Assembly (NCBI RefSeq): GCF_000219215.1
Contig: NC_015723.1
Location: forward strand, 806,001-870,000
Length of the DNA: 64,000 nt
From: Cupriavidus necator N-1
Lineage (GTDB): Bacteria; Pseudomonadota; Gammaproteobacteria; Burkholderiales; Burkholderiaceae
Direction of reading: 5' to 3'
Below are positions 525 through 19,123 of the stretch, one piece after another. Under the pieces are notes generated by a model. The model saw only the letters and a program-made list of their open reading frames with translations, made no database searches and had not been told where the DNA came from. Within the stretch, counting starts at the first letter, position 1, and the number at the start of each line of letters is the position of its first letter. A program made the translations under genes and the position numbers.

Positions 525-540
525 ACTGTCAGTGTGCATA
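525..540. promoter_or_regulatory. degenerate PicR-type operator before the regulator gene
   Basis: The sequence ACTGTCAGTGTGCATA carries the left half (TCAGTG) of the TCAG-N4-CTGA palindrome found at eight other promoters here, but the right half is GCATA instead of CTGA. It ends 16 bases before the chosen start of the MarR gene. This suggests weak autoregulation. It is an inference from motif likeness and position. Confidence 0.45.
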
Positions 541-556
541 CAAAATGGTGAGAGCG

Positions 557-1087
557 ATGTCTGCGAGAGCGAAACGCAACGCAACGAGCGGCAGTAGTGA
601 GGCGGCGGATGCCGTGCCGGAAGCCGATCCGGCAAAGGAGTTGCTCTGGGCACGTCCGGGGTTCCTGGTGCGGCGCTTGCACCAGATCCACGTCGCGATG
701 TTCTTCGAGGAGTGCAAGTCGCCGAACATCACGCCCGTGCAATATGCCATCCTGACGGTGCTGTCGGTGCTGCCGGGGCTGGACCAGACCTCGCTCGGGC
801 AGGAGGTCGGCCTGGACCGGACCACGACCGCCGATGTCGTGCGCCGGCTCGAAGAGCGCGGACTGGTAGAGCGCCGCGACAACCCCGCCGACCGGCGCAC
901 CCGCCATGTCTACCTGACGCGGGAAGGCAAGAGCGTGGTCACGGCGCTGCGTGCCGACATGGCGCGTGCGCAGGAGCGCATGCTGGCGCCGCTGAAGCCC
1001 GCTCAGCGCGAAGTGTTCATGGACCTGCTGGCGACGCTGGTGGAAGCCAACAACCAGTACAGCCGCACCGTGCTGCGCAGCATGTAA
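557..1087 (+). CDS. picR: MarR-family regulator of the picolinate genes (PicR-like)
   Basis: This 176-residue protein has the MarR winged-helix layout: an N-terminal dimerisation helix, the recognition region around SLGQEVGLDRTTTADVVRRL, and the wing with the conserved DxRxR-like NPADRRTRHVYLT, followed by C-terminal dimer helices. The ATG at 557 was chosen because GGTGAG lies just upstream; the ATG at 545 has no such site and would lie against the operator. MarR proteins of pyridine-acid pathways usually repress and are released by a pathway intermediate. In the reported Alcaligenes faecalis picolinate system (recalled, not checked) a MarR protein, PicR, does this job with a TCAG-N4-CTNN site. 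The palindromes across this locus match that form, which supports the name. The gene is convergent with the oxygenase operon and separated by a hairpin. Confidence 0.8.
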   Translation: MSARAKRNATSGSSEAADAVPEADPAKELLWARPGFLVRRLHQIHVAMFFEECKSPNITPVQYAILTVLSVLPGLDQTSLGQEVGLDRTTTADVVRRLEERGLVERRDNPADRRTRHVYLTREGKSVVTALRADMARAQERMLAPLKPAQREVFMDLLATLVEANNQYSRTVLRSM

Positions 1088-1092
1088 GCCCG

Positions 1093-1115
1093 ACGGCGGG
1101 CGCAAGGCCCGCCGT
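1093..1115. terminator. hairpin between convergent picR and oxygenase operon
   Basis: ACGGCGGGC and GCCCGCCGT form a perfect 9-bp stem with a 5-base loop between the two convergent stops. There is no T run on either strand, so a role in termination is likely from position but not certain. Confidence 0.55.
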
Positions 1116-1126
1116 GCGCAGGCGCA

Positions 1127-1651
1127 TCAGACCGGGTAGACCAGGTCGTTGGCGATGATGGTGGTGTCGTAGACGACCTGCCGCTCGCGCAGCAGCAGCC
1201 TGCCACCCTGGCGGCGGAACCGGTCGTAGTAGGTCCCCGCCAGGTGGATCGTGGTGGGGCCCTCCACCAGCGTTTGCAGCAGCATGTAGTTGGCCTGTGC
1301 CAGGATATCGCCGTCCGCGGTTTCGTCGCTGACGCGCGTGTTGGTCACCAGGTGCAGGTTGTAGCGCGGCGCGAACATCTGCGTATTGGCAATCGCAGCG
1401 GCGCGGTCGCGCATCATGCCCACCCCTTCGGCGTAGACCAGCCCCACCGGCAGGTTGCGCTCGGCATTCTCGCGCGCGGTGATCCTGTAGAGCGCGTCCT
1501 CGGTGAAGAAGCGGGGCCATTGCTCGACCAGGCCGGCGTCGAGCACCGCGCAGTATTCCGCGTGGAAGGCCTCGATCTCCAGCCGCAGTTCAATGGCGCG
1601 CGCGGTGCCGAGGGCGCTCTCGCAATAGAGGGAATAGTTCATCGGTTTCAT
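1127..1651 (-). CDS. Rieske oxygenase small (beta) subunit, probable 6-hydroxypicolinate 3-hydroxylase
   Basis: The 174-residue protein has the NTF2-like fold of ring-hydroxylating oxygenase beta subunits, with the early acidic helix (EIEAFHAEYCAVLDAG), the FFTEDALYRI strand and a late RLLLRERQVVYDTT strand. Beta subunits hold the hexamer together and carry no metal. It is the last gene of a minus-strand operon of ferredoxin, reductase, large subunit and small subunit, starting 26 bases after the large subunit stop. The ATG at 1651 was preferred over the ATG at 1642 because a GGGA lies upstream. The exact substrate rests on the pathway context. A salicylate 5-hydroxylase type beta subunit would look similar. 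Confidence 0.85.
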   Translation of the reverse strand: MKPMNYSLYCESALGTARAIELRLEIEAFHAEYCAVLDAGLVEQWPRFFTEDALYRITARENAERNLPVGLVYAEGVGMMRDRAAAIANTQMFAPRYNLHLVTNTRVSDETADGDILAQANYMLLQTLVEGPTTIHLAGTYYDRFRRQGGRLLLRERQVVYDTTIIANDLVYPV

Positions 1652-1677
1652 ATTCTGGGAATCCCGTTAGCCGCCGT

Positions 1678-2967
1678 TCAGAACCCCATCACGCCGCGGT
1701 AGTACTGGTACATCGCACGGATGGCGGATTCGGAGATCAGGGAGTTGGAGGTGCCGACCTGGTCCGGATCCAGCTTGAGCACATTGAGGTCGCTGCTGGA
1801 GCGGCGCACGCCTTCCTGCACGAACTTCATCGCCTCGTTGTCCTCCAGCCCCAGGAAGCCTGCGGGGCCCATCAGGTTGCCCTGGCGCAGGCGGTGCTGC
1901 GTCATCTCCTCGGTATCGTCCTCGTAGCCGAACATGGTCCACAGCATCAGCATGCTGTCGGGGCCGTTGGGCACGATCTGGCGCACGCCGAGGGTGTTCA
2001 TTTCGCGCTGCACGATCAGGTTCGGCCAGATCGTCTGCATCGTCACCGACCACGGCGAATCGAACTCTTTCACATACTCCAGGAAGCGTTCGTCTTCCAG
2101 GCGCATGCCCTCATGGTATGAGCGCATCTCCTTCTTGTTCTCGTCGCTGACGGCCGCGTACTTGTCTTCCTTTTTCGCCGACGCCATGGTGCCGTGCCGC
2201 CCGTGCACCGGATCGGCGATCATGGCACTTTCATTGCCCGCCACCAGCAGCCCGAACACCACCAGGAAGGAGTGCAGCAGCGTGGCGTGGTACGGGTCCT
2301 TGAGGTTCTCGTGGTACATCTTCCAGTTGCACGGGAGTTCGTTCTTGTAATACCCGAGCACCTTGAGCGGCTTGCCGTTGAAGACGATGTCGAAGTCCTT
2401 GAGGATCTCCGGCGTCAGATAGTCTTCCAGGCTTTCCATGTCCGCCGCGTACGAGGCGAAGACCACGCCGTTGCGCGTGGCCACGTTCAGCTTGACCAGG
2501 CCGTGGTCCTCGTTGCGGAAGTCCCTGGGCATGCCGCCCGCACGATTGACGCCGCGCTTGAACGGAACGCCCTGCAGGTTGCCCTTGAGGTCGTAGGACC
2601 ATTGGTGATAGGGGCAGACGAATTCCTTCGCATTGCCCTGGCTGTGGCGGCAGAACTCGGCGCCGCGGTGCGCGCAGCGATTCTCGAAGACGTTGACCGA
2701 GCCGTCTTCGGCGCGCGACACCACCACGGGCGTCGCGCCGACATAGGAGCGCTTGTAGTCGCCGGCGTTGGGGATCTCCGCTTCGAGCGCGACGTAGTTC
2801 CAGGAGCGTCCGCGAAAGATCTTCTGCAGCTCCAGGTCATGCACCTCCTTGCTGGTGTAGACCCAGTCCGGGATGTAGTGCAGGCTGTCTTCGGGCCAAC
2901 GGCAGTCGGCCAGGCCGGCGTCTTTCTTGCCCAGCGTGTGCTGGATCACCGCTTGTGTCTGGTACAT
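1678..2967 (-). CDS. picB: Rieske oxygenase large (alpha) subunit, probable 6-hydroxypicolinate 3-hydroxylase
   Basis: The 429-residue protein carries a Rieske [2Fe-2S] motif with C98, H100, C118 and H121, then a mononuclear iron site in which H227 and H232 are the likely histidine ligands and D224 the likely electron-relay aspartate (ENLKDPYHATLLH). It would insert oxygen into a ring, using electrons from the ferredoxin encoded upstream. In the picolinate route this would turn 6-hydroxypicolinate into 3,6-dihydroxypicolinate, the substrate of the decarboxylase at 11580. The size, the C-x-H...C-x2-H spacing and the separate ferredoxin and reductase resemble the salicylate 5-hydroxylase and anthranilate dioxygenase group, which is the main alternative. 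AAAGGA lies upstream of the ATG. The symbol picB is used for the multi-component enzyme as a whole; I am not sure of the subunit numbering. Confidence 0.82.
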   Translation of the reverse strand: MYQTQAVIQHTLGKKDAGLADCRWPEDSLHYIPDWVYTSKEVHDLELQKIFRGRSWNYVALEAEIPNAGDYKRSYVGATPVVVSRAEDGSVNVFENRCAHRGAEFCRHSQGNAKEFVCPYHQWSYDLKGNLQGVPFKRGVNRAGGMPRDFRNEDHGLVKLNVATRNGVVFASYAADMESLEDYLTPEILKDFDIVFNGKPLKVLGYYKNELPCNWKMYHENLKDPYHATLLHSFLVVFGLLVAGNESAMIADPVHGRHGTMASAKKEDKYAAVSDENKKEMRSYHEGMRLEDERFLEYVKEFDSPWSVTMQTIWPNLIVQREMNTLGVRQIVPNGPDSMLMLWTMFGYEDDTEEMTQHRLRQGNLMGPAGFLGLEDNEAMKFVQEGVRRSSSDLNVLKLDPDQVGTSNSLISESAIRAMYQYYRGVMGF

Positions 2968-2979
2968 GTGGGAGTCCTT

Positions 2980-4260
2980 TCAGAGTGTAGTGGGGCTGGC
3001 CGCTGCCGTCGGGAGGTCGCGCACCAGCTGTCGCAGCGGCAAGGCGTCATCGCACAGCCGTGGTAGCAGGTCTTCGACGGCATGGCCGAAGAGCACGCGC
3101 AACGGCCGCAAGTCGCCGCCGGCATTGATGGCAATGGCGTGGCTGAGCCGGCCGTGCCGGGTGCCGAGCAGCATGAACCTGGGGGAGGGCGCGTCGCTGG
3201 CGGCGATGCCGCGCCAGGCGTAGCGGGTATCGGGAGTGGCCGCGCCGAGCATCTGCACGTTGCAGCCGAACTGGTCGGTCCAGAACCACGGCATCGCCGC
3301 GGGTTCGGCCTGCACGCCCAGTATGGCCGCGGCGGCGATGCGCGCCTGCTCGTTGGCGCTTTGCCAGGATTCCAGCCGCATGTGGGCGCCGAACAGGGGC
3401 TGGTACTGGCTGCAGCAGTCGCCCGCGGCATAGATGCCGGCCGCGCTGGTGTGGCCCTGCTGGTCGACCTGGATGCCGCCGTTGGCGGGATCCAGCGCCA
3501 GGCCGGCGGCGGCGCCGAGCGCCACCTCGGGCGTCAGCCCGATCGCGACCACCACCAGCGGCGCCTGCAACGCCGCGCCATCCGCCAGCCGGACCTGCAC
3601 GCCATCGGCCTGCGGCACCAGGGCCGCGATGCCGCAGCCGAGCCGCAGTTCAACGCCTTGCGCTAGCACGCGCTGCGCCAGCCAGCTGCCAAGCTCGGGC
3701 GGCAGCGCGCGGCCGAGCAGCCGGTCGGCGCTTTCGATCAGCGTGACCCGGAGGCCGATGCCGGCCGCGGTCGAAGCCGTTTCCAGGCCAAGGAAACCGC
3801 CGCCGATCACGATCACCTCGCGCGCACGCTGCATGGCATCGCGCAGGCGAGCGGCGTCGTCGAGTGTGCGCAGGTAGTGCACATGGGGCGTGCCTGGCGG
3901 CAGCGCGGGCAGGACGCGCGCATTGCCGCCGGTGGCGAGCAGGCAGGCGGCGTAGCGAATGGCCTCGCCATCTGCGCAGTGCGCCACGCTGTGCGCGGGG
4001 CCCAGCGCGGTGACCGTGGTGCCAAGCCGTAGCTCGATGTCCTGCCCGGCATAGAAGCCGGCGGGGTGCACGCCGATCTTGCCGTCCTGTGCGGCGTCGG
4101 CGAGCAAGGACTTGGACAGGGGCGGGCGTTCGTACGGTGCATGGCGCTCGCCGCCGGCCATGACGATGCGGCCACGATGGCCGAGCCTGCGCAGTTCGGC
4201 AGCGGCCATCGCGCCAGCCTGGCCGGCGCCGACAATCAGGATGGGCGTGTCTTGTGGCAT
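2980..4260 (-). CDS. FAD-dependent ferredoxin reductase of the Rieske oxygenase
   Basis: The 426-residue protein has two dinucleotide folds: ILIVGAGQAGAMAA near the N-terminus for FAD, and VIVIGGGFLGLETAS near residue 150 for NAD(P)H. A C-terminal reductase dimer domain contains WFWTDQFGCNVQMLG. It would pass electrons from NADH to the Rieske ferredoxin encoded 11 bases upstream. The start at 4260 has AAGGAG six bases before it; an open frame runs further upstream but reads through the ferredoxin gene. The order ferredoxin, reductase, alpha, beta on one strand shows a complete four-component system. Confidence 0.9.
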   Translation of the reverse strand: MPQDTPILIVGAGQAGAMAAAELRRLGHRGRIVMAGGERHAPYERPPLSKSLLADAAQDGKIGVHPAGFYAGQDIELRLGTTVTALGPAHSVAHCADGEAIRYAACLLATGGNARVLPALPPGTPHVHYLRTLDDAARLRDAMQRAREVIVIGGGFLGLETASTAAGIGLRVTLIESADRLLGRALPPELGSWLAQRVLAQGVELRLGCGIAALVPQADGVQVRLADGAALQAPLVVVAIGLTPEVALGAAAGLALDPANGGIQVDQQGHTSAAGIYAAGDCCSQYQPLFGAHMRLESWQSANEQARIAAAAILGVQAEPAAMPWFWTDQFGCNVQMLGAATPDTRYAWRGIAASDAPSPRFMLLGTRHGRLSHAIAINAGGDLRPLRVLFGHAVEDLLPRLCDDALPLRQLVRDLPTAAASPTTL

Positions 4261-4271
4261 GCTCGGCTCCT

Positions 4272-4577
4272 TCAAAGCTCGACCCACACCCGGCTGTCTT
4301 CGAACTTGACCGGGTAGGTGCGGATGTCGCTGGTGGCAGGCGCGCACATGGCCTTGCCGGAGCGGATGTCGAAGCGGGCCTGGTGCAGCGGGCACTCGAT
4401 GCAGCCGTCTTCCAGGTAGCCGTCGGACAGCAGCGCGTACTGGTGCGTGCAGACGTTGTCGGTGACGAAGTACTGGTCGTCGCTGCGATAGACGGCGAGC
4501 TGGCGGTCCCCCAGCGTGAGCGGCATGACCTCGTCGTTCTGCAGGCCGTGCGCGGCGTCGATTTCAATCCATGCCAT
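4272..4577 (-). CDS. Rieske-type ferredoxin of the oxygenase
   Basis: This 101-residue soluble ferredoxin has the Rieske ligands C43, H45, C62 and H65 (CTH and CPLH). Single-domain Rieske ferredoxins carry one electron at a time from the FAD reductase to the oxygenase large subunit. It is the first gene of the oxygenase operon. GGAG lies 7 bases before the ATG, and the promoter just upstream holds two copies of the TCAG-N4-CTGA operator, so it is probably the entry point of PicR control. Confidence 0.93.
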   Translation of the reverse strand: MAWIEIDAAHGLQNDEVMPLTLGDRQLAVYRSDDQYFVTDNVCTHQYALLSDGYLEDGCIECPLHQARFDIRSGKAMCAPATSDIRTYPVKFEDSRVWVEL

Positions 4578-4591
4578 GGCGATCTCCGTGA

Positions 4592-4635
4592 ATTGTATTT
4601 GTCAGTATGCTGAATATATAAGATCAGTGTACTGA
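4592..4635 (-). promoter_or_regulatory. promoter of the oxygenase operon with two PicR-type operators
   Basis: TCAGTATGCTGA lies at 4602-4613 and TCAGTGTACTGA at 4624-4635, 22 bases apart start to start. On the minus strand TACAAT at 4597-4592 is a plausible -10 box, and the proximal operator falls in the spacer just upstream of it. A protein bound there would block RNA polymerase, which fits a MarR repressor. The -10 assignment is an inference. Confidence 0.75.
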
Positions 4636-4659
4636 TGTTTTTCGCTCGCAGTATTCTGG

Positions 4660-5709
4660 TTAACCCTGGCCGGGGTTGGCCGCGCCGGATCTGGCTGGCC
4701 CCACCGCGGGCGCGCCGGCCTGCAGCGACGGGCGGGCCTGCCAGCGAGCCAGGATCTCGCCCATGATGCCGCGGCGGAACGTCAGCACGCATACCACGAA
4801 GATCAGCCCTGTCACCATGCTGACCGATTCGCCCAGCGCTTCGAACCAGCCGATGCCGGTCATGGCCGCGAGCGCGTTGCCGGCGTCGCCCAGCTTGTTT
4901 TCCAGCGCCACGATCACCAGCGCGCCGACCAGCGGGCCCGACAACGTGCCCATGCCGCCGACCAGCGTCATCAGGATGACCGTGCCCGACATCATCCAGT
5001 GCACGTCGGTGAGCGTGGCAAAGCCCAGCACCAGGGTCTTGAGCGCGCCCGCCAGCCCGGCCAGTGCCGACGACAGCACGAACGCCAGCAGCTTGAAGCG
5101 GTCCGCGTCATAGCCCAGCGAGATGGCACGCGGCTCGTCCTCCTTGATCGCGCGCAGGATCTGCCCGAACGGCGAGTTGACGATGCGCATGATGCCGAGG
5201 AAGGCCGCGGCGGTGATCAGCAGCACGACGTAGTACATGGTGTGGTCCGACGCCAGCGGCAGCACGCCGAACAGGTCGCCCCGCGGCACCGCCTGGAGGC
5301 CGTCTTCGCCACCGGTCGCGGGCGTCTGCAGGCAGAAGAAGTAGAACATCTGCGCCAGCGCCAGCGTGATCATGGCGAAGTAGATACCCTGCCTGCGTAT
5401 CGCCAGTGCACCAAACACCAGGCCGAGCAGGGCCCCGAACGCGGTGCCGGCCAGCAGGCCCAGCTCCGGCGTCAGCTGCAGGGACTTCATCGCATAGCCG
5501 CAGGCATAGGCGGCGCCGCCGAAGAAGGCCGCATGGCCGAACGACACCAGCCCGGTGTAGCCCAGCAGCAGGTTGAAGGCGCAGGCAAAGAGCGCGAAGC
5601 ACAGCAGCTTCATCACCAGCACCGGGTAGGCGCCCAGCCAGGGCGCGAGCAGCAGGACCGCCAGCAGCAGTCCGTAGGCGAAGGTTGCACGCTTTCCGCT
5701 TGCCATCAT
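4660..5709 (-). CDS. branched-chain-type ABC permease, LivM-like
   Basis: The 349-residue membrane protein has about ten hydrophobic segments and the LivM signature run beginning NLLLGYTGLVSFGHAAFFGG. Its EAA-like loop is near the RAIKEDEPRAISLGYD stretch. It forms the import channel with the LivH-like partner. The ATG at 5709 overlaps the stop of livH (ATGA); the longer open frame upstream is livH DNA read in another frame. In this locus it would import the pyridine acid or an aromatic acid rather than branched-chain amino acids, because a pathway operator stands before the operon. It is the last gene of the transporter operon, and its stop lies 24 bases from the operators of the oxygenase operon. 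Confidence 0.92.
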   Translation of the reverse strand: MMASGKRATFAYGLLLAVLLLAPWLGAYPVLVMKLLCFALFACAFNLLLGYTGLVSFGHAAFFGGAAYACGYAMKSLQLTPELGLLAGTAFGALLGLVFGALAIRRQGIYFAMITLALAQMFYFFCLQTPATGGEDGLQAVPRGDLFGVLPLASDHTMYYVVLLITAAAFLGIMRIVNSPFGQILRAIKEDEPRAISLGYDADRFKLLAFVLSSALAGLAGALKTLVLGFATLTDVHWMMSGTVILMTLVGGMGTLSGPLVGALVIVALENKLGDAGNALAAMTGIGWFEALGESVSMVTGLIFVVCVLTFRRGIMGEILARWQARPSLQAGAPAVGPARSGAANPGQG

Positions 5710-6590
5710 TTTTCCTTTCCAAAGAGCCCGGCGGGGCGCACCAGCAACACGCACACCATGGCGACGAAGACCACCGTCGCGGAGGCTTCGGGGTAGTAGA
5801 CCTTGGTGATGCCCTCGAAGACACCCAGCCCAAGTCCGGTGAAGATCGAGCCCAGGATCGAACCCATGCCGCCGATCACCACCACGGCGAAGACCGTGAT
5901 GATCAGGTTCTGGCCCATCAGCGGCGAGACCTGCATCACCGGCGCGGCCAGCACGCCCGCCAGCGCGGCCAGGCCCACGCCGAAAGCGTAGGTCAGCGTC
6001 ACCAGCAGCGGCACGTTGACGCCGAACGCCTCGACCATGCGCGGATTCTCGGTGCCGGCGCGCAGGTAGGCGCCCAGCCGGGTCTTCTCGATCATGAACC
6101 AGGTGGCAAAGCACACCGCCAGCGACGCCAGCACCACCCATGCGCGGTAGTTGGGCAGCACCATGAAGCCCAGGTGGCTCACGCCAGACAAGGCTTCGGG
6201 CGTGGGGTAGGGCAGGCCGGAGACGCCGTAGACCGAGCGCAGCGCGCCTTCGATCAGCAGGCAGATGCCCAGCGTCAGCAGCAGCCCGTACAGGTGGTCG
6301 AAGCGGTAGAGGTGGCGCAGCATGGTGCGCTCAAGCACCACGCCGAGCGCGCCGGCCACCACCGGTGCCAGCACCAGCATCAGCCAGTAGTTCAGCCCGA
6401 GGTAGTTCAGGCCCATCCAGGCCAGCACCGCGCCGAGCATGAACAGCGCGCCGTGCGCAAAGTTGATCACGTTGAGCAGGCCGAAGATCACGGCTAGCCC
6501 CAGGCTCAGGATCGCGTAGAACGAGCCGTTGACAAGCCCCAGCAGCAACTGGCTCAGCAGCGCGGGCAGGGGCACTCCAAACAATTCCAT
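5706..6590 (-). CDS. branched-chain-type ABC permease, LivH-like
   Basis: The 294-residue protein begins MELFGVPLPALLSQLLLGLVN and shows about eight membrane spans. It contains the family run GLAVIFGLLNVINFAHGA near residue 40. AAGGAG stands 8 bases upstream of the ATG at 6590, and the next upstream gene ends only 10 bases away. It pairs with the LivM-like protein as the second half of the channel and is driven by the two ATPases encoded before it. Confidence 0.92.
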   Translation of the reverse strand: MELFGVPLPALLSQLLLGLVNGSFYAILSLGLAVIFGLLNVINFAHGALFMLGAVLAWMGLNYLGLNYWLMLVLAPVVAGALGVVLERTMLRHLYRFDHLYGLLLTLGICLLIEGALRSVYGVSGLPYPTPEALSGVSHLGFMVLPNYRAWVVLASLAVCFATWFMIEKTRLGAYLRAGTENPRMVEAFGVNVPLLVTLTYAFGVGLAALAGVLAAPVMQVSPLMGQNLIITVFAVVVIGGMGSILGSIFTGLGLGVFEGITKVYYPEASATVVFVAMVCVLLVRPAGLFGKEK

Positions 6591-6600
6591 GCAAATCTCC

Positions 6601-7338
6601 TTAAACGCCCAGCAAGGCGCTGAGCGTGGGCATCTTTCGTTCGAGCTCATCGGCGCCGAGCGCCTCGACGATGCGGCCGTGCTCCATCACGAAGAAGCGG
6701 TCCGCCAGTGGCGCGGCAAAGCGGAAGTTCTGCTCCACCATGACGATGGTGTAGCCGCGGCTGCGCAGCATGGCGATCATCTTCGCCAGCTTCTGCACGA
6801 TCACGGGCGCCAGGCCTTCCGAGATCTCGTCGAGCAGCAGCACGCTGGCACCGGTGCGCAGGATGCGGGCTACCGCCAGCATCTGCTGCTCCCCGCCCGA
6901 CATGCGCGTGCCCTGGCTCTTGCGCCGCTCATGCAGATTGGGGAACATCTCGTAGATCTCGCCCAGCGCCATCGGCTCGCGCAGTCCGACTGCGCCCGGG
7001 GTGCAGGCGAATTGCGGCGGCAGCAGCAGGTTCTCCTCGCAGGACAGGCTGGCGAAGATGGCGCGCTCTTCCGGGCAGTAGCTCAGCCCCAGCGGCGCGA
7101 TGCGGTGCGTCTTCATGCCGATCGTTTCCTGGCCGTGCACGCACACCGAACCCTTGCGCATGCCGACCAGGCCCATGATGGCGCGCAGCGTGGTGGTGCG
7201 CCCGGCGCCGTTGCGGCCGAGCAGCGTCACCACCTCGCCCGGGTTGACGGTCAGGTCCACGCCGTGAAGGATGTGCGATTCACCGTACCAGGCGTGCAGG
7301 CCGCGCAGTTCGAGGGCAGGGGAGGCCGTCCTGGTCAT
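6601..7338 (-). CDS. branched-chain-type ABC ATPase, LivF-like, with altered Walker A
   Basis: The 245-residue ATPase has the LivF form. Its signature is MSGGEQQMLAVARIL, its Walker B is VLLLDEISEGLAP and its H-loop region is TIVMVEQN. The Walker A reads GRNGAGRTT, with arginine 47 (codon CGC at 7200-7198) where nearly all ABC ATPases have lysine. The lysine holds the beta and gamma phosphates of ATP, so the change could weaken or abolish this site, leaving the LivG partner to work in an asymmetric dimer. It may also be a recent mutation or a base-calling error. The start overlaps the stop of livG (ATGA). Confidence 0.9.
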   Translation of the reverse strand: MTRTASPALELRGLHAWYGESHILHGVDLTVNPGEVVTLLGRNGAGRTTTLRAIMGLVGMRKGSVCVHGQETIGMKTHRIAPLGLSYCPEERAIFASLSCEENLLLPPQFACTPGAVGLREPMALGEIYEMFPNLHERRKSQGTRMSGGEQQMLAVARILRTGASVLLLDEISEGLAPVIVQKLAKMIAMLRSRGYTIVMVEQNFRFAAPLADRFFVMEHGRIVEALGADELERKMPTLSALLGV

Positions 7339-8141
7339 GATGCCTCCGCGCTCAGGGCCGCCGCGGCTGCATGGCGGTCTTCGGGTTCGTCGGTGGTTCC
7401 CATATAGGCTTCCCTTACCTGCGGATTGCGTGAGATCTCGTCATAGGTGCCTTCTGCCAGCACCGCGCCGCGCTGCAGCACGGTGATGCGGTCCACGATG
7501 GACGACACCACGCTCATGTTGTGCTCCACCATCAGCACCGTCCGCCCTGCCGAAACGCGCTTGATCAGGGCGGTGACGGTCTCCACGTCTTCATGGCCCA
7601 TGCCTTGCGTCGGTTCGTCCAGCAGCATCAGCTCCGGATCGGTCGCCAGCGTGGTGGCAAGCTCCAGCGCGCGCTTGCGCCCGTAGGCCAGCTCCGCCGT
7701 GCCCAGGTCCGCGAAGCCTGCCAGGCCGACCGCATCTAGCAGTTCCATGGCGCGGCCGTCCAGCCGCGACAGGGAGCGCTTGCCGCGCCAGAAATGCCAG
7801 GACGTCCCGAGCCGGCGCTGCAGCGCGATGCGCACGTTCTCCAGCACCGTCAGTTGCGGAAATACCGCCGAGATCTGGAACGACCGGATCACCCCCATGC
7901 GGGCGATCTGGGCCGGGCGCAGCGCGGTGATGTCCGTGCCGTTGAAATGGATCGAGCCGGACGAGGGGGCATGGAACTTCGTCAGCAGGTTGAAGCAGGT
8001 GGTCTTGCCGGCGCCGTTGGGCCCGATCAGCGCGTGGATCGAGCCCCGCCGCACGGACAGGCTGACATCGCTGACTGCGGTAAAGCCCTTGAACGCCTTG
8101 GTCAGTCCCTGCGTCTGCAGGATTACATCGGTGTCAGGCAT
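7335..8141 (-). CDS. branched-chain-type ABC ATPase, LivG-like
   Basis: The 268-residue ATPase has a normal Walker A (GPNGAGKTT), a divergent signature region (LAYGRKRALELATTL), the Walker B LMLLDEPTQGMG and the H-loop MVEHNMSVV. The LivG family has this same shortened signature in place of LSGGQ. It starts 7 bases after the binding-protein gene and overlaps livF. Together with livF it powers the transporter. Confidence 0.93.
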   Translation of the reverse strand: MPDTDVILQTQGLTKAFKGFTAVSDVSLSVRRGSIHALIGPNGAGKTTCFNLLTKFHAPSSGSIHFNGTDITALRPAQIARMGVIRSFQISAVFPQLTVLENVRIALQRRLGTSWHFWRGKRSLSRLDGRAMELLDAVGLAGFADLGTAELAYGRKRALELATTLATDPELMLLDEPTQGMGHEDVETVTALIKRVSAGRTVLMVEHNMSVVSSIVDRITVLQRGAVLAEGTYDEISRNPQVREAYMGTTDEPEDRHAAAAALSAEAS

Positions 8142-8148
8142 GGCGCGC

Positions 8149-9366
8149 TCACTTCTTTACCAGGGGGCATTCGCTGGCCGACAGCGGTCGGAAGGCCTCG
8201 TCGCCGGGGATCGTGCCGATATACCTGACCAGGTCCCACGGGCCCTTGGACTCGGCCGGGGTCTTGGCCTGGGCCAGGTACATGTCATGCACCATGCGGC
8301 CGTCGACACGCACCTTGCCGTTGCGCACGAAGGCATCGTTGACGGGCAGCGCGCGCATCTTCTCCGCCACGGCCGGGCCTTCCACGGTCTTCGCTGCCTC
8401 CACCGCCTTCAGGTAATGCAGCACGCCGGAGTAGACGCCGATCTGGCCATGCGTGGGATAGGCCTTGTGGCGCTTGTAGTAGCGCTCGACGAAGTCCTTC
8501 GACTTGCCATCCAGGTCGAGCTTGAACGGGTCGACATAGGTCAGCCCCTGCGCGGCGTTCAGGCCCAGGCTCTTGAGATCGGTGATGAAGGTGGAGGGCG
8601 TGATCACGGTCTGGCCGGCCTTGATCAGGCCGAATTCGCCGGCTGCCTTGACGCCGTTGATCATGTCGTTGCCGGCGTTGGCCAGCACCACCACCTTGGC
8701 CTTGGAAGCAGAGGCGGCCACCACCGGGCTGCTGAAATCGCTGGCGTTGAGCGGATGCCGGGTAGCGCCCACGTTCTTGCCGCCGCCGGCGTCCACGGCC
8801 TTGCGGAAATCTGCTTCCAGCGACTGGCCGAAGGCGTAGTCCACGGTGATGTAGTACCAGCTGTTGCGGCCCTGTTCGATCATGCGGCGCACCAGCGGGT
8901 AAGACACCGAATACGTGTCCCAGGCCCAGTGAAAGCCGGTGGGCGAGCAGTTCTGGTTGGTCAGCGCCATGGCGCCACCGGTCGAGACGATGTCGATCTT
9001 CTGCTTCTGCCGCGCCACCTCCTGCACCGCCAGCGCGGTCGAAGAGTTGGGGAAGTCGATCACCATGTCGACGCCATCGGTATCGAACCAGCGGCGCGCC
9101 AACGACGACGCGATATCGGCCTTGTTCTGGTGATCGGCGGAAAGCACCGTCACCGGTTTGCCGAGGGCCTTGCCGCCGAACTCTTCCACGGCCATCTGCG
9201 CGGCAAGCACGGAGCCCTTGCCGGAGAGGTCGGCATAGGAGCCGGACATATCGGTGATGACGCCGATCTTCACGCCATTGGTGTCGGCCAGTGCGGGCGT
9301 GGCGGCGGCCAGGCCCAGCAGGGCGGAGGACGCAGCGAGGGTGCGGAGGATGCGAGAGGTGGTCAT
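8149..9366 (-). CDS. periplasmic substrate-binding protein of the ABC importer (LivK-like)
   Basis: The 405-residue protein has an export signal of about 27 residues ending in PALADTN, then the type I periplasmic binding fold beginning VKIGVITDMSGSYADLSGKG. It captures the substrate outside the membrane and gives it to the LivHM channel. The ATG at 9366 has GGAG nine bases upstream; an earlier in-frame ATG at 9438 has no export signal right after it. It is the first gene of the transporter operon, and a TCAGTATGCTGA operator lies 100 bases before it, so import is probably induced with the degradation genes. Confidence 0.92.
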   Translation of the reverse strand: MTTSRILRTLAASSALLGLAAATPALADTNGVKIGVITDMSGSYADLSGKGSVLAAQMAVEEFGGKALGKPVTVLSADHQNKADIASSLARRWFDTDGVDMVIDFPNSSTALAVQEVARQKQKIDIVSTGGAMALTNQNCSPTGFHWAWDTYSVSYPLVRRMIEQGRNSWYYITVDYAFGQSLEADFRKAVDAGGGKNVGATRHPLNASDFSSPVVAASASKAKVVVLANAGNDMINGVKAAGEFGLIKAGQTVITPSTFITDLKSLGLNAAQGLTYVDPFKLDLDGKSKDFVERYYKRHKAYPTHGQIGVYSGVLHYLKAVEAAKTVEGPAVAEKMRALPVNDAFVRNGKVRVDGRMVHDMYLAQAKTPAESKGPWDLVRYIGTIPGDEAFRPLSASECPLVKK

Positions 9367-9465
9367 CAGGGGCTCCAGGTTGTCTACGCGAAAGATTCGA
9401 ATGGTTGCGATGGCTGCGTCGGCAGACCGCGGCGCCATCGCTGCGCCGCAGTAGCGCGGATAAAC

Positions 9466-9477
9466 TCAGTATGCTGA
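9466..9477 (-). promoter_or_regulatory. PicR-type operator of the ABC transporter operon
   Basis: TCAGTATGCTGA is an exact copy of the operator arms seen before the oxygenase operon. It is a single copy, about 100 bases upstream of the binding-protein start and downstream of the terminator of the MFS gene, so it can only serve the ABC operon. Confidence 0.75.
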
Positions 9478-9493
9478 ATAGTTGGCTGTGAAA

Positions 9494-9515
9494 AAGGGCG
9501 GAGAGATCCGCCCTT
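9494..9515 (-). terminator. rho-independent terminator of the MFS gene
   Basis: AAGGGCGGA and TCCGCCCTT form a perfect 9-bp stem with a 4-base loop. On the minus strand the stem is followed by a T run (five A on the plus strand at 9491-9495). It lies 21 bases after the MFS stop and separates that gene from the ABC operon. Confidence 0.85.
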
Positions 9516-9536
9516 CAGCTTCACCCGTAGTGCCGC

Positions 9537-11141
9537 TCAGGTGGCCAGGTCGCGGCCGCGCGTCTCCGGCACGAACAGCATGCCGATGACGAAGGCCAGG
9601 CCGGCGATGATCACCGGGTACCACAGGCCGAAGTAGACGTCGCCGCTGGCCACGTTCATGGCCGTGACCACGAAGGACAGCATGCCGCCGACCCAGCCCG
9701 CGCCGAGGTGGAAGGGCAGGGACAGCGAGGTGTAGCGCACCCGGGCCGGGAACAGTTCCACCATGAAGGCCGCCATCGGCCCATACACCATGGCCAGGAA
9801 CAGGATCGGGACCAGCAGCAGCACGAATACCATCGGCGTGTTGATCTTCGAGAGATCGGCGCGCTCCGGCCAGCCGGCCGCCACCAGCGCGCCCTTGATG
9901 GCGTCGCGGTCAAAGCCCTGCAGCGTGCGATCCGCAATGCGCACTTCCGCCTGCGCCGGATTGCTGGCCGGCACGAAGGTGTAGCCCACGCCCAGGTCGG
10001 TCAGGTAGCCGCGGATCTTGTCGCAGGCGGATACCGGCTCGCCGAACAGGCGCGCCTTGCAGTCGCCGGCCGTCACCTGCACGGCGCCTTGCTGCTGGAA
10101 TTGCTCGAGTGCCGGATTGGCATAGTGCGTCAGGCCCTTGAACACCGGCTGGATGCACACCGCCGCCAGCAGGCAGGCGGCCATCATGATGTACTTGCGG
10201 CCGATGCGGTCGGACAGCCAGCCGAACAGCAGGTAGCAGGGCGTGGCCACCACCAGCGCGATCCCGATCAGCTTGTGGACCGTTTCGAGCGGCACGTGCA
10301 GCGTCTTGTTGAGGAAGAACATCGAGTAGAAGTGGCCGGTGCCGAAGATGGCGCCCAGGCCCGCCGCCACCACGAACAGCAGCAGCACGGACCTGAGGTT
10401 CTTCCAGTTGGTGAAACTCTCGCGGATCGGCGCCCTAGAGGTGGTGTTGGCGGCCTTCATCCGGGCAAAGACCGGCGATTCATGCAGCTTGCCGCGGATG
10501 TAGACCGAGATCACCAGCATCACCAGCGACACGATAAAGGGAATGCGCCAGCCCCACTCACGGAATTCGGCCTCGGTCAGGAAGGTCTTGAGCAGGTAGA
10601 CGACCAGCAACGAGGACAGCAGGCCCAGCGTTGCCGTGGTCTGCAGCGAACTGGTGTACAGCCCGCGCTTGTGCACGGGGGAGTGCTCGGCCACGTAGGT
10701 GACCGCGCCGCCGACCTCGCCGCCCAGCGCCAGGCCTTGCAGCAGCCGCAGCAACACCAGCAGCACGGTGGCGGTGATGCCGATCTGCTCATACGTGGGC
10801 AGCACGCCAACGCCGACGGTGGCAACACCCATCAGCAGGATGGTGACCAGGAAGGTGTACTTGCGCCCGATCAGGTCGCCCAGGCGGCCGAACAGCAGCG
10901 CGCCCACCGGCCGTATCAGGAAGCCTGCGCCGAAGGTAGCCAGGCTGGCCAGGAAAGCGGCAGTCTCATTGCCCTTGGGGAAGAACAGTGCGCCGAAGTA
11001 CACCGCCAGTGCGGCGTAGATGTAGAAGTCGTACCACTCCATCAGGGCGCCGAAGGAAGAGGCAAGGATGACCTTGCGCTCCTCGGCTGTCATGCGGGAG
11101 GCGGGGGCGCGTGTCTCGCTGCGAGTCAGGCTGATCGTCAT
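9537..11141 (-). CDS. MHS-family MFS transporter, probable picolinate uptake
   Basis: The 534-residue protein is a metabolite:proton symporter of the MHS type, shown by the first span with MEWYDFYIYAALAVYFG, the loop GRLGDLIGRKYTFL and the later loop GWLSDRIGRKYIMM. About twelve membrane spans are present. It is longer than the usual 430-450 residues because roughly 90 residues (about 350-440) are inserted between late spans, with two cysteines (GDCKARLFGEPVSACDK). GGAC precedes the ATG weakly. It faces the decarboxylase operon across a 438-base region with five PicR-type operators, so it is probably induced by the pathway. Substrate choice is inferred from position. Confidence 0.85.
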   Translation of the reverse strand: MTISLTRSETRAPASRMTAEERKVILASSFGALMEWYDFYIYAALAVYFGALFFPKGNETAAFLASLATFGAGFLIRPVGALLFGRLGDLIGRKYTFLVTILLMGVATVGVGVLPTYEQIGITATVLLVLLRLLQGLALGGEVGGAVTYVAEHSPVHKRGLYTSSLQTTATLGLLSSLLVVYLLKTFLTEAEFREWGWRIPFIVSLVMLVISVYIRGKLHESPVFARMKAANTTSRAPIRESFTNWKNLRSVLLLFVVAAGLGAIFGTGHFYSMFFLNKTLHVPLETVHKLIGIALVVATPCYLLFGWLSDRIGRKYIMMAACLLAAVCIQPVFKGLTHYANPALEQFQQQGAVQVTAGDCKARLFGEPVSACDKIRGYLTDLGVGYTFVPASNPAQAEVRIADRTLQGFDRDAIKGALVAAGWPERADLSKINTPMVFVLLLVPILFLAMVYGPMAAFMVELFPARVRYTSLSLPFHLGAGWVGGMLSFVVTAMNVASGDVYFGLWYPVIIAGLAFVIGMLFVPETRGRDLAT

Positions 11142-11265
11142 GGCGGGGGTCCTTTGGTGTAGCTATTGTCTCTATATGTCTGCTCGTCCCGGCGGTGCCG
11201 GCGCCGCTGGCCAGGGCCTGTCGGTCCCTCGCGCAGTGCAGCGCCGCATCCTTCCGGTGCATCAG

Positions 11266-11297
11266 TCAGTATGCTGATGAGAAACGCAGTATGCTGA
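11266..11297 (-). promoter_or_regulatory. MFS-proximal pair of PicR-type operators
   Basis: TCAGTATGCTGA at 11266-11277 and GCAGTATGCTGA at 11286-11297 lie 20 bases apart, two turns of the helix. They sit about 125 bases upstream of the MFS start. The second copy has one altered outer base. The stretch 11142-11265 between them and the gene contains no other feature I can support. Confidence 0.75.
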
Positions 11298-11368
11298 GCA
11301 AAATGTGGGCCAGTCCACAATGTGCCGGAATGCCCGAAATCGCCTATTTAAATGGTCTTTTAATATCG

Positions 11369-11402
11369 TCAGCATACTGAGCATCTGCGCTCAGTGTACT
11401 GA
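11369..11402. promoter_or_regulatory. central pair of PicR-type operators in the divergent region
   Basis: TCAGCATACTGA at 11369-11380 and TCAGTGTACTGA at 11391-11402 are 22 bases apart. The first copy is the reverse-strand form of the TATG-core sites. They follow an unusually AT-rich stretch (11345-11367) that may hold promoter elements of either gene. The pair may serve both the MFS gene and the decarboxylase operon. Confidence 0.7.
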
Positions 11403-11486
11403 GGGTGTATGGCCATCGTTATAGGTGTTAACCCTCCGCGCCGCTTCTAGACTTTTGGAATTTCGCTGACTAGAATCCGAAACTAA

Positions 11487-11498
11487 TCAGTGTACTGA
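11487..11498 (+). promoter_or_regulatory. PicR-type operator before the decarboxylase operon
   Basis: TCAGTGTACTGA, flanked by A and T to give a 14-base near palindrome, lies 82 bases upstream of the decarboxylase ATG. A TAGAAT at 11471-11476 just before it could be a -10 box, which would place the operator at the transcription start. That promoter assignment is tentative. Confidence 0.7.
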
Positions 11499-11579: not shown

Positions 11580-12542
11580 ATGACCAAAGTGAAGAAGATC
11601 GCCCTCGAAGAGCATTTCATGACGCCGGGTTTCCAGGCCTATTCCAAGGCGTTCACGCAGCATATCGATCCAGCAGTTTTTGCCGAACTGGGCCGCCGCC
11701 TGGCCGATTTCGACGAGGACCGCCTCGCCGAGATGGACCGCGCCGGCATCGACATCACGGTGCTGTCGCAGACTGGTCCGGGCGTGCAGGGCGAGTCCGA
11801 CTCCGGCCTTGCCGTGGCGCGGGCACGCGAGAGCAATGACTTCCTGGCCGCGCAGATCGCGCGCCACCCCACGCGCTTTGCCGGCTTTGCCGCGCTGCCC
11901 ATGCACGACCCGGAGCAGGCCGCGCGCGAGCTGGAACGCGCCGTGCGCGAGCTTGGCTTCAAGGGCTCGCTGGTGAACGGCCATACCCACGGGCGCTACT
12001 ACGACGACCCTGCATACGATGCTTTCTGGGAACGCATGCAGGCGCTGGACGTGCCCATGTACCTGCACCCGACCGATGCGCTGGTTCAGCCGCAGGTCCT
12101 GGCGGGCCACCCCGAGCTGACCGGCGCGGCGTGGGGCTGGGGCGTCGAGACCGCATCGCATGCGCTGCGGCTGCTGTTCGGCGGCGTGTTCGACCGCTTC
12201 CCGCGCCTGAAGATCATCCTCGGCCATATGGGCGAGGGCTTGCCGTACCAGCGCTGGCGCTTCGACAGCCGCTTTGCGGTCTATTCGCACGGGGTCCGGC
12301 TGGCGCGCGCGCCTTCGGAATATATCGGCACCAATATCGTCATCACCACCTCGGGGGTGTGCTCGCACGGTGCGCTGGCCGGTGCCATTGCCGAGCTCGG
12401 CGCGGAGGCCGTGATGTTCTCGGTCGACTATCCCTACGAATCCACCGAAGTCGCGGCGAAGTTCATCGAGGACGCGCCGCTCGACGACACCACGCGCGCG
12501 CTGGTCTGCCACGGCAACGCGCAACGCCTGCTCAAGCTGTAA
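11580..12542 (+). CDS. picC: amidohydrolase-2 decarboxylase, probable 3,6-dihydroxypicolinate decarboxylase
   Basis: The 320-residue protein belongs to the metal-dependent non-oxidative decarboxylases related to gamma-resorcylate and 2,3-dihydroxybenzoate decarboxylases. The expected ligands are visible: E10 and H12 (ALEEHF), H163 (YLHPTD), H216 (LGHMGE) and D283 (SVDYPYES). In the picolinate route it would remove CO2 from 3,6-dihydroxypicolinate and yield 2,5-dihydroxypyridine, the substrate of the ring dioxygenase three genes downstream. AGGAG lies 11 bases before the ATG. It heads a plus-strand run of eight genes with short gaps. A hydroxybenzoate decarboxylase is the alternative, but the neighbours are all pyridine-ring genes. 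Confidence 0.83.
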   Translation: MTKVKKIALEEHFMTPGFQAYSKAFTQHIDPAVFAELGRRLADFDEDRLAEMDRAGIDITVLSQTGPGVQGESDSGLAVARARESNDFLAAQIARHPTRFAGFAALPMHDPEQAARELERAVRELGFKGSLVNGHTHGRYYDDPAYDAFWERMQALDVPMYLHPTDALVQPQVLAGHPELTGAAWGWGVETASHALRLLFGGVFDRFPRLKIILGHMGEGLPYQRWRFDSRFAVYSHGVRLARAPSEYIGTNIVITTSGVCSHGALAGAIAELGAEAVMFSVDYPYESTEVAAKFIEDAPLDDTTRALVCHGNAQRLLKL

Positions 12543-12563
12543 CCGTACAACCCGAGGACCCTC

Positions 12564-13316
12564 ATGCAAAAAGTCTTTCGCATCGGCCAGATCGTTCCCA
12601 GCTCGAACACGACCATGGAAACCGAGATTCCCGCCATGCTGCTGGCGCGCCAGCAGCTCCGTCCGGAGCGCTTTACCTTCCACTCCAGCCGCATGCGCAT
12701 GAAGAAGGTGGTCAAGGAAGAGCTGGCCGCCATGGATGCCGAATCCGACCGCTGCGCGGTGGAGCTCAGCGACGCCCGCGTCGACGTGCTCGGCTACGCC
12801 TGCCTGGTCGCCATCATGGCCATGGGCCACGGCTATCACCGCAAGTCGGAGCAGCGCCTGAAGGCCCACACCATCGAGAATGGCGGCGACGCGCCGGTCA
12901 TCACCAGCGCCGGTGCGCTGGTGGATGCGCTGCGCGTGATCGGCGCGCGCCGCATCGCCGTGGTGGCGCCATACATGAAGCCGCTGACCGAGCTGGTGGT
13001 GGACTACATCCGCAACGAAGGCTATGAGGTGGTGGACTACCGTGCGCTGGAAATCCCGGACAACCTGGAGGTCGGCCGCCACGATCCGGCGCGGCTGCCC
13101 GGCATCGTGTCGCAGATGAACCTGGCGGATGTCGATGCCATCGTGCTGTCGGCCTGCGTGCAGATGCCGTCGCTGCCGGCCGTGGCAAAGGTGGAGGCGA
13201 TGACGGGCAAGCCGGTCATCACCGCGGCCATCGCCACCACCTACGCCATGCTCAAGGCGCTGGACCTGGAGCCGGTCGTGCCGGGCGCCGGCGCGCTGCT
13301 GTCGGGCGCCTACTGA
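12564..13316 (+). CDS. picG: maleate cis-trans isomerase
   Basis: The 250-residue protein belongs to the Asp/Glu racemase superfamily. Two catalytic cysteines are in the expected places, C80 (GYACLVAIM) and C198 (LSACVQMPSL), and the N-terminal GQIVPSSNTTMETE loop is typical of maleate isomerase. It changes maleate into fumarate, the last step that feeds the ring carbons into the citric acid cycle. It lies second in the operon, although it acts last. The same role is called NicE in nicotinate pathways. Confidence 0.9.
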   Translation: MQKVFRIGQIVPSSNTTMETEIPAMLLARQQLRPERFTFHSSRMRMKKVVKEELAAMDAESDRCAVELSDARVDVLGYACLVAIMAMGHGYHRKSEQRLKAHTIENGGDAPVITSAGALVDALRVIGARRIAVVAPYMKPLTELVVDYIRNEGYEVVDYRALEIPDNLEVGRHDPARLPGIVSQMNLADVDAIVLSACVQMPSLPAVAKVEAMTGKPVITAAIATTYAMLKALDLEPVVPGAGALLSGAY

Positions 13317-13325
13317 GGGCATGCC

Positions 13326-14153
13326 ATGACCACCTTCCTTTATGGCGGCCATGTCCATGCCAACGGCATTCGCCAGCACTACCTGCGCTATGGCGGCAAC
13401 GACGGTGCGCGTGCCGCGCGCGATCCCGTGATCATCGTGCCGGGCATCACCAGCCCGGCAATCACCTGGGGCTTCGTCGGCGAGCGCTTTGGCGCCAGCT
13501 TCGATACCTATGTGCTGGACGTGCGCGGGCGCGGCCTGTCGTCGGCTGAGGCCGGGCTGGACTACAGCCTCGACGCCCAGGCCCGCGACGTGGTGGCCTT
13601 TGCCGAGGCGCTCGGCCTGCGCCGCTACAGCGTGGTTGGCCATTCGATGGGCGCGCGCATCGGCGTGCGCGCCGCGGCGGGCCGGCCTGGCGGCCTGGCC
13701 AGACTGGTGCTGGTCGATCCGCCGGTGTCGGGGCCCGGGCGCCGCGCGTATCCCGCGCAACTGCCGTGGTATGTGGATTCCATCCGCCTGTCGCGCCAGG
13801 GCACCGACGTGGAAGGCATGCGCTGCTTCTGCCCGACCTGGACCGACGAGCAGTTGCGCCTGCGCGCCGAATGGCTGCATACCTGCAACGAAGACGCCGT
13901 GATGCGCAGCTTCGAGGATTTCCATCGCGACGACATCCATGCCGACATGCCCAGGATCACGGTGCCGGCGCTGCTGGTGACTGCCGGGCGCGGCGACGTG
14001 GTGCGCGCCGAGGACGTGGCGGAGATCCGCACGCTGCTGCCGGGGGTGCTGGTCAGCCACGTTGCTGGTGCCGGCCACATGATCCCGTGGGATGACGAAG
14101 CGGGCTTTTACGCGGCGCTGGGGGACTTCCTCGGCGCGCCGCTGACGCAATGA
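13326..14153 (+). CDS. picE: N-formylmaleamate deformylase (alpha/beta hydrolase)
   Basis: The 275-residue alpha/beta hydrolase shows the nucleophile elbow VVGHSMGARIG with S107, an acid residue near VTAGRGDVV and a late histidine in GAGHMIPWDDE. NicD of nicotinate degradation has this size and layout. It would hydrolyse N-formylmaleamate, the ring-opening product, to formate and maleamate. Function is assigned from family likeness plus its place next to the ring dioxygenase and the maleamate amidase. Confidence 0.87.
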   Translation: MTTFLYGGHVHANGIRQHYLRYGGNDGARAARDPVIIVPGITSPAITWGFVGERFGASFDTYVLDVRGRGLSSAEAGLDYSLDAQARDVVAFAEALGLRRYSVVGHSMGARIGVRAAAGRPGGLARLVLVDPPVSGPGRRAYPAQLPWYVDSIRLSRQGTDVEGMRCFCPTWTDEQLRLRAEWLHTCNEDAVMRSFEDFHRDDIHADMPRITVPALLVTAGRGDVVRAEDVAEIRTLLPGVLVSHVAGAGHMIPWDDEAGFYAALGDFLGAPLTQ

Positions 14154-14169
14154 CCAGCAAGGAGCGGAC

Positions 14170-15225: not shown

Positions 15226-15227
15226 CC

Positions 15228-15854
15228 ATGCACAAGGAGATCGGCGCGTACCAGCGCCAGGGCTTCGGCAACGACCTGGAACTGGCGGGCCCGTTCGGGC
15301 TGCTGGTGGTCGATTTCGTCAACGGCTTTGCCGATCCGGAGGTGTTCGGCGGCGGCAATATCCGCGAGGCCATCGCCAACACCGTGCCGCTGCTGGCCGT
15401 GGCACGGCGCGAAGGCTGGGCGATCGCGCACAGCCGCATCGTCTTTGCGGACGATGGGTCGGACCACAACATCTTCGCCATGAAGGTGCCGAACATGCTG
15501 TCGCTGAAGGAGCGCGAGCGCAACAGTGCCATCGTCGAAGAACTGGCACCACGGGCGGGCGAGCTGGTGGTGCGCAAGACCGTGCCGTCGGCATTCTTCG
15601 GTACGTCGCTGGCCGCGTGGCTGACGCAGCGCGGCGTGCGCACGCTGGTGGTGGCCGGCGCCGTGACCAGCGGCTGCGTGCGCGCCAGCGTGGTGGACGC
15701 CATGCAGTACGGCTTCCGGCCGCTGGTGCTGTCGGATTGCGTCGGCGACAGGGCGCTCGGCCCGCATGAGGCCAACCTGTTCGACATGGGGCAGAAGTAT
15801 GCGACGGTGGCCTCGCGCGCAGAGGGGCTGGCTGCTATCGGGGTGCGCGAATGA
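15228..15854 (+). CDS. picF: maleamate amidohydrolase (isochorismatase-like)
   Basis: The 208-residue cysteine hydrolase has the isochorismatase-family triad D29 (LLVVDFVNG), K117 (VVRKTVPSAF) and C150 (VTSGCVRAS). These residues match the NicF triad. It splits maleamate into maleate and ammonia. The start at 15228 is 2 bases after the dioxygenase stop, with GGAGGAG before it, so translation is probably coupled. It is the nitrogen-release step of the pathway. Confidence 0.92.
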   Translation: MHKEIGAYQRQGFGNDLELAGPFGLLVVDFVNGFADPEVFGGGNIREAIANTVPLLAVARREGWAIAHSRIVFADDGSDHNIFAMKVPNMLSLKERERNSAIVEELAPRAGELVVRKTVPSAFFGTSLAAWLTQRGVRTLVVAGAVTSGCVRASVVDAMQYGFRPLVLSDCVGDRALGPHEANLFDMGQKYATVASRAEGLAAIGVRE

Positions 15855-15887
15855 GCGCTTGCATGAATCATCGGGACGGATAAGACA

Positions 15888-18284: not shown

Positions 18285-18287
18285 CCC

Positions 18288-19114: not shown

Positions 19115-19123
19115 GGAGCGCCC

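Follow-up and report, generated by a model that had tools for sequence, protein, structure and literature searches.

Conserved palindromic operators at the picolinate locus of Cupriavidus necator N-1 point to a PicR-type regulon that includes two importers

Investigation of a 64-kb stretch of the Cupriavidus necator N-1 genome (contig 1, 806001-870000, referred to here as the window; the genome comprises 8.48 Mb in four contigs) revealed nine exact or near-exact copies of the palindrome TCAG-N4-CTGA in a cluster of genes for picolinate use (pic). These sites stand before the MarR-family regulator gene (picR) and before the operons for the Rieske oxygenase (picB), an ATP-binding cassette (ABC) importer, a major facilitator superfamily (MFS) importer and the decarboxylase (picC), as a first-pass annotation of the window had noted. 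The locus is very probably the regulon of a PicR-type MarR repressor that would be released by an intermediate of the pathway, with two importers included; this reading, proposed in the first-pass annotation, gains support from the comparative evidence, namely the joint presence of MarR gene and cluster across genomes, motif counts and the corresponding sites in Alcaligenes.

A motif scan of the window found seven exact copies of TCAGNNNNCTGA, at 4602, 4624, 9466, 11266, 11369, 11391 and 11487, all of them within 6.9 kb (4602-11498), while 0.73 copies (standard deviation 0.90) were expected and the maximum in 100 shuffles was four. All site coordinates of the first-pass annotation were correct, and its remark that copies were noticed nowhere else holds, as the window has no further exact copy; with up to one mismatch there are 33 matches against 19.6 expected (standard deviation 4.0), and the remaining near-copies are about background because 25 matches are left after the eight locus sites are removed. 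The genome-wide search that the first-pass annotation had proposed as a check was made for two forms of the motif. The bare motif TCAGN4CTGA has 133 copies in the 8.48 Mb versus 43 for a reversed control and is thus not specific; with only 29 of these having a pyrimidine-purine-pyrimidine-purine (YRYR) core, it was rejected as a genome-wide signature of PicR. The form TCAG-YRYR-CTGA has these 29 copies versus two for the control, and seven of the 29 are at the locus. The cores of the seven exact locus copies are TATG, CATA and TGTA, all of this alternating type; all four copies in the genome with a TATG/CATA core are at the locus, as are three of the six with a TGTA/TACA core. The three TGTA/TACA copies outside the locus are not claimed as further members of the regulon: two are identical copies of one repeat, both located where the same 378-aa frame has its 3' end, and the third is an isolated intergenic TCAGTGTACTGA on contig 2 (276014-276025; L017:5015), downstream of a frame that is porin-like by eye, and is a possible, putative extra target.

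Conservation of the individual sites was followed in an alignment of ten Cupriavidus promoter sequences (the window and nine relatives). At the picB promoter, the proximal operator TCAGTATGCTGA (4602..4613) is an exact TCAG-YRYR-CTGA in all ten, and the distal operator TCAGTGTACTGA (4624..4635), 22 bp from it, has the same 12 bases in all ten. The operator TCAGTATGCTGA before the ABC operon (9466..9477) is exact in nine of the ten and has one mismatch in the other. Before the MFS gene, TCAGTATGCTGA (11266..11277) is exact in all nine sequences having that stretch, in which its neighbour GCAGTATGCTGA (11286..11297; one mismatch, 20 bp from 11266) is likewise identical. Conservation of the operators before the ABC and MFS genes supports the inclusion of both importers in the regulon. 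Between the MFS gene and picC, TCAGCATACTGA (11369..11380) is exact in 10/10, and TCAGTGTACTGA (11391..11402), 22 bp from 11369, is exact in 7/10 and replaced by GCAGTGTACTGA in 3/10; a further TCAGTGTACTGA (11487..11498), ten bases after the picC -10 hexamer and exact in 10/10, would cover early transcribed bases of picC. The ninth site, TCAGTGTGCATA (529..540, forward strand), is a predicted, asymmetric operator with two mismatches at the promoter of picR.

Regarding loci in other genomes, a profile scan with the PicC alignment was made across genome contigs, and the best 80 of 320 relatives were used as loci, with sites assigned to the nearest gene start and a distance rule defining those upstream of a pic gene. 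There are 241 exact sites upstream of pic genes, in 69 of the 80 loci (nearest start: 79 ferredoxin, 96 picC, 30 MFS, 22 MarR, seven ABC and seven molybdenum hydroxylase), and 16 exact sites elsewhere. A YRYR core is present in 229 of the 241 and in three of the 16, these three including an ABC operator missed by the distance rule (L023:7891) and a site just before a MarR gene (L091:5625). The four-base spacer, written as a free N4 in the first-pass annotation, is thus not free. The information content is about 1 bit at each position of the core, and the flanks favour WWWTnn before and nnAWWW after the site (W, A or T; 211 distinct 30-mers), the outer eight bases being imposed by the search pattern and hence uninformative.

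Many of the sites are paired. When sites outside annotated genes were considered, one exact with a YRYR core and its partner with at most one mismatch, 61 pairs were found within 60 bp, of which 59, in 22 loci, have two YRYR cores. All 59 are 20-23 bp apart (20 bp, n=29; 21 bp, n=12; 22 bp, n=16; 23 bp, n=2), and the two pairs with one non-YRYR core are 51 and 52 bp apart; the loci are related, so the 59 pairs are not independent events. The 20-23 bp pairing is seen in Cupriavidus, Achromobacter, Bordetella, Pusillimonas and Pigmentiphaga. The simplest reading is that paired sites lie two helical turns apart on one face of the helix, and this strict two-turn spacing suggests cooperative binding of two dimers.

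The gene encoding the putative repressor (545..1087, forward strand; 180 aa) is a probable ortholog of picR, and its product is a winged-helix protein of the MarR family according to profiles (with scores below curated cut-offs) and structures matched by sequence, the nearest being PcaV (4fht, the best match), HosA (8aga) and CouR (6c28). Its recognition-helix segment DRTTTADVVRRL is well kept across the MarR alignment, and all 62 aligned sequences, that of the window among them, have R43 and R44; this arginine pair may hold the carboxylate of the ligand. At the promoter of the gene, one base separates the operator 529..540 from a -10-like TATACT (522-527), with the ATG at 545. The copy at 529 was described in the first-pass annotation as damaged, a label that the comparison shows to be misleading. 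All 23 loci of the genus, including the window, have the box TCAG-YRYR-C(AT/TA)AC before the MarR gene, and a stricter pattern is present in 22, the exception (L120) differing by one end base. Across 22 aligned loci, the 15 columns of the box have a mean major-base fraction of 0.93 and the 15 columns on either side, which hold the -10-like hexamer and the gene start, 0.80-0.82, while DNA 20-110 bp upstream has diverged (0.44-0.45). Because it is conserved in relatives, site 529 looks like a selected autoregulatory operator and not a product of damage, and its sequence suggests that it is a weaker one.

The MarR gene and the cluster are inherited together. Among 60 genomes of the genus, picC (counted at at least 79% identity, in G042 by a fragment, with weaker matches of 43-54% excluded) is present in 22, and a MarR ortholog was detected in all 22 of these and in one of the 38 others (G054), 23 in all; in 20 of the 22 genomes both are on the same contig and no more than 12 kb apart. 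Counts of TCAGTRTRCTGA are 5-10 (mean 7.2) in the 22 picC-bearing genomes versus 0-5 (mean 0.74) in the 38 others. In G054 (L110), picR, which has its operator, and the genes for the small and a truncated large Rieske subunit directly adjoin a piece of the molybdenum hydroxylase gene, and the pic cluster of this genome is apparently the remnant of an internal deletion.

For PicR of Alcaligenes faecalis JQ135, the study by Xu and colleagues of 2022 reportedly found footprints at picR-picC (one) and at picB-picT (two), with the motif TCAG-N4-CTNN and 6-hydroxypicolinate, not picolinate, as the ligand. In A. faecalis AU14 and A. pakistanensis, the MarR protein encoded beside picC is 55-59% identical to that of the window; TCAGCATACTGA stands before picC in these two genomes, and the DNA immediately upstream of picB has TCAGTATACTGT and TCAGCACACTTA. 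All three sites fit the TCAG-N4-CTNN rule and have YRYR cores; they were chosen by position, and the loose form TCAG-N4-CT also matches elsewhere (7315 and 7658 in L130; 9744 in L093). The window thus resembles Alcaligenes in having a MarR-family gene in the pic cluster and such sites at the picC and picB promoters. Seven of its nine sites fit TCAG-N4-CTNN, the strict misfits being 11286, whose left arm is GCAG, and 529, whose right arm is CATA; the right half of the MarR box is CTAA, which fits, in eight of the 23 genus loci and CATA in the window and 14 others.

Several observations weigh against this account. The genomes compared are related and are not independent samples; in G042, 53 kb of contig C217 separate the MarR gene (at 13000) from the picC fragment (at 65859), versus about 11 kb in most relatives, and in the fragmented assembly of G045 the two genes are on different contigs. 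Twelve of the 241 sites lack a YRYR core, CCTA being the commonest form (six). Eleven of the 80 picC loci lack a counted site before any pic gene (L059, L061, L075, L083, L084, L086, L088, L090, L091, L095 and L097), one being short on one side and several being alphaproteobacterial or metagenome-assembled, and eight of them (L061, L083, L086, L088, L090, L091, L095 and L097) have an aligned MarR homolog. The DNA-reading helix in the siteless loci is not sharply different; co-variation of helix and motif was considered and set aside as not clean, L086 keeping the usual helix yet having no site at all. A scan for sigma-70 promoters gave a single match, at picC, which is at chance level (1.3 expected from shuffles). 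The siteless loci with a MarR homolog would suit an explanation in which a different, unlinked regulator reads the palindromes and the MarR gene is a mere neighbour, as would the abundance of the bare palindrome genome-wide and the conserved GTTAAC element described below, which hints at other factors. We nevertheless consider such a regulator improbable, given that cluster and MarR gene occur in the same genomes, the conserved copy over the promoter of the MarR gene itself, the presence of the same motif together with a MarR homolog in pic loci of Alcaligenes, Achromobacter, Bordetella and Paraburkholderia, and the result that a scan of 19 proteins encoded between 485 and 20293 detected no other helix-turn-helix protein. 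It is hardly credible that the palindromes arose by chance in AT-rich DNA between genes, as low-complexity inverted repeats or as hairpins of RNA: the arms are only 4 bp long and the surrounding intergenic DNA is AT-richer to the eye, but a chance origin was rejected by the shuffle test, by conservation in the ten aligned sequences despite much variation in the flanks, and by the 20-23 bp spacing, and is further contradicted by co-occurrence with the cluster.

A more serious alternative concerns the promoters themselves, where PicR may be only one of two inputs: expression would also need an activator bound to a GTTAAC element, some 38 bp upstream of the picB and picC -10 hexamers, and derepression alone would be insufficient. 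The two picB operators flank a -10-like TATATA (4616..4621, reverse strand), where the sigma-70 scan scored no promoter pair, in keeping with such a need; before picC there is a promoter-like TAGACT-17-TAGAAT (11448..11476, forward strand), with TAGAAT kept in 9/10 aligned sequences. Upstream of these stand the conserved elements AGGGTTAAC (4659..4667, reverse strand) and GTTAACCCT (11427..11435, forward strand), and at both genes of the window the -10 or -10-like hexamer follows the end of GTTAAC by 38 bp. Either GGGTTAAC or GTTAACCC is found before both picB and picC in all ten aligned Cupriavidus sequences; the picC hexamer follows GTTAAC by 38 bp in eight and by 40 bp in two, and TATATA or TATATG follows the picB element by 38 bp in five, the other five being less clear or shifted by one or two bases. 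Against a second input, loci from other genera showed neither 8-mer before picC or the ferredoxin gene, no candidate activator emerged, and AGGGTTAAC is not generally enriched, with 11 genome copies versus 16 for a control, so that a role of GTTAAC as a general catabolic signal gained no support. The other copies seem, by eye and from open frames, to be mostly intergenic, near porin-, regulator- or enzyme-like frames, and a 16-base stretch, TATAGGTGTTAACCCT, recurs on contig 2 near 386146 (L135). Dependence on two inputs is conceivable but the less probable case, and it would supplement the PicR repressor reading without excluding it; the GTTAAC element is an open lead to a second regulator. 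The most elaborate version, in which the operator is longer and shape-sensitive (AT flank, TCAG, YRYR, CTGA, AT flank), PicR represses as phased dimer pairs and an activator acts at GTTAAC, is put forward tentatively and we think it somewhat unlikely as a whole.

The PicR reading suggests the following mechanism. When no substrate is available, dimers of the protein encoded at 545-1087 would bind WWWTnn-TCAG-YRYR-CTGA-nnAWWW on or beside the promoters and exclude RNA polymerase, so that five predicted units would be repressed, namely those of picR, of picB, of each of the two importers (ABC and MFS), and of picC together with the lower pathway and picA. At the paired sites (picB, before the MFS gene, and in the gap between the MFS gene and picC; 20-22 bp), two dimers would sit side by side and reinforce each other. 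As the autoregulatory site is a weaker, asymmetric version, picR would be only lightly repressed, and the level of PicR may thereby be buffered. An early intermediate, reportedly 6-hydroxypicolinate for the Alcaligenes protein, may bind the dimer near the conserved arginine pair and turn the DNA-reading heads, and all five units would then be released together. In PcaV, a catabolic repressor, the winged helix-turn-helix DNA-binding heads rotate when protocatechuate is bound (PMC5487221, PMC4737184).

Regarding the genes of the locus, profile matches and synteny identify the set around the sites as a pic cluster, and picA, picB, picC and genes of the lower pathway are all together, as judged by profile searches and related loci, from the genes alone. 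The pathway names rest on gene order in related loci and on the description of a Bordetella cluster because the best NCBIfam scores are below curated cut-offs. A picB-type four-component Rieske oxygenase (1127..4577, reverse strand), assigned by profile search and orthologs in pic loci, consists of ferredoxin (4272-4577), reductase (2980-4260), large subunit (1678-2967) and small subunit (1127-1642, with the start codon picked by us), all on the reverse strand. The LIV/urea-type ABC importer (4660..9438, reverse strand) has two permeases, two ATPases and a periplasmic binding protein, with profile scores below curated cut-offs, and the MFS metabolite/H+ symporter-like importer (9537..11141, reverse strand) matches TIGR00883 with 349.7 bits, below the cut-off of 443.45. 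An inverted repeat, AAGGGCGGA-loop-TCCGCCCTT followed by T, lies on the reverse strand at 9494-9515 between the MFS gene and the ABC operator; it can be recognised in most of the aligned Cupriavidus sequences and looks like a terminator of the MFS gene, although a terminator scan gave no listing there. The picC gene, encoding an amidohydrolase-2 decarboxylase 98% identical to PicC of C. necator SHC 2-3, and the lower pathway (11580..15854, forward strand; profiles and synteny) follow, by profile, the order amidohydrolase, arylmalonate decarboxylase/EutA-like, alpha/beta hydrolase, unassigned and isochorismatase-like. By pathway context the lower-pathway genes probably encode maleate isomerase, deformylase, 2,5-dihydroxypyridine dioxygenase and amidase; the arylmalonate decarboxylase/EutA-like gene occupies the maleate isomerase position, and the gene at 14170, having no NCBIfam or Pfam match, is named from synteny and tblastn similarity only.

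A three-subunit molybdenum hydroxylase (15888..20293, forward strand; profiles) occupies the picA position. TCAG(T/C)ATGCTGA is present in a long gap before the molybdenum hydroxylase in seven of nine aligned relatives, while the gap of the window (15855-15887) is 33 bp long and without an operator, and C. necator L019 likewise has only a short gap that lacks it; in C. basilensis (L028) no operator was found before the molybdenum hydroxylase. Because of the short gap without an operator of its own, picA in the lineage of the window is probably read from the picC promoter.

Compared with known systems, the nine sites before five units differ from the three sites reported for JQ135 PicR. Further differences are the full CTGA right arms at eight of the nine sites, with both arms exact at seven, the pairing of sites 20-22 bp apart, the presence of an operator in front of an ABC importer operon, the 11-kb distance between picR and picC, and picA apparently joined to the picC operon. 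The cluster of Bordetella bronchiseptica RB50 has picC grouped with picG, E, D and F, divergent picB and picT, and picR apart from picC (PMC10142695), a layout that the window shares in its picC group, its divergent picB and transporter and its separate picR; the parts of that description consulted mention no operators. Other Bordetella pic loci have no ABC operon like that of the window in their flanks, among the matches listed. In Bradyrhizobium pic loci (L079, L088, L095 and L097), a gene for a periplasmic binding protein (57-60% identical) lies directly before picC, and tblastn detected no matching permeases or ATPases in the DNA of these loci. In A. faecalis AU14 (L093), the deformylase match after picC ends early (11640), and no dioxygenase or amidase gene was detected next to it. 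Both PcaV of Streptomyces coelicolor and CouR of Rhodococcus share with the window protein the MarR fold, catabolic repression and release by a ligand (the latter two being predicted for the window protein), but differ in their ligands and are distant in sequence. Among the matches listed in a literature search that did not extend to most subscription papers, there was no paper on PicR operators or on regulation of picolinate use in Cupriavidus.

The YRYR core, the strict phasing, the inclusion of the ABC operon, the apparent loss of a separate picA operator and the second conserved GTTAAC element are new. The core preference corrects the idea of a free four-base spacer in the PicR operator, the two-turn phasing makes cooperative binding directly testable, and the operator set may be usable for an aromatic-acid biosensor. 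Together the sites provide a map of the picolinate regulon of Cupriavidus that can be put to the test, in which the ABC and MFS importers are likely picolinate transporters. If the version with both a longer operator and a second regulator were true, the picolinate promoter of Cupriavidus would be an AND gate, and the regulon would include a dedicated ABC importer.

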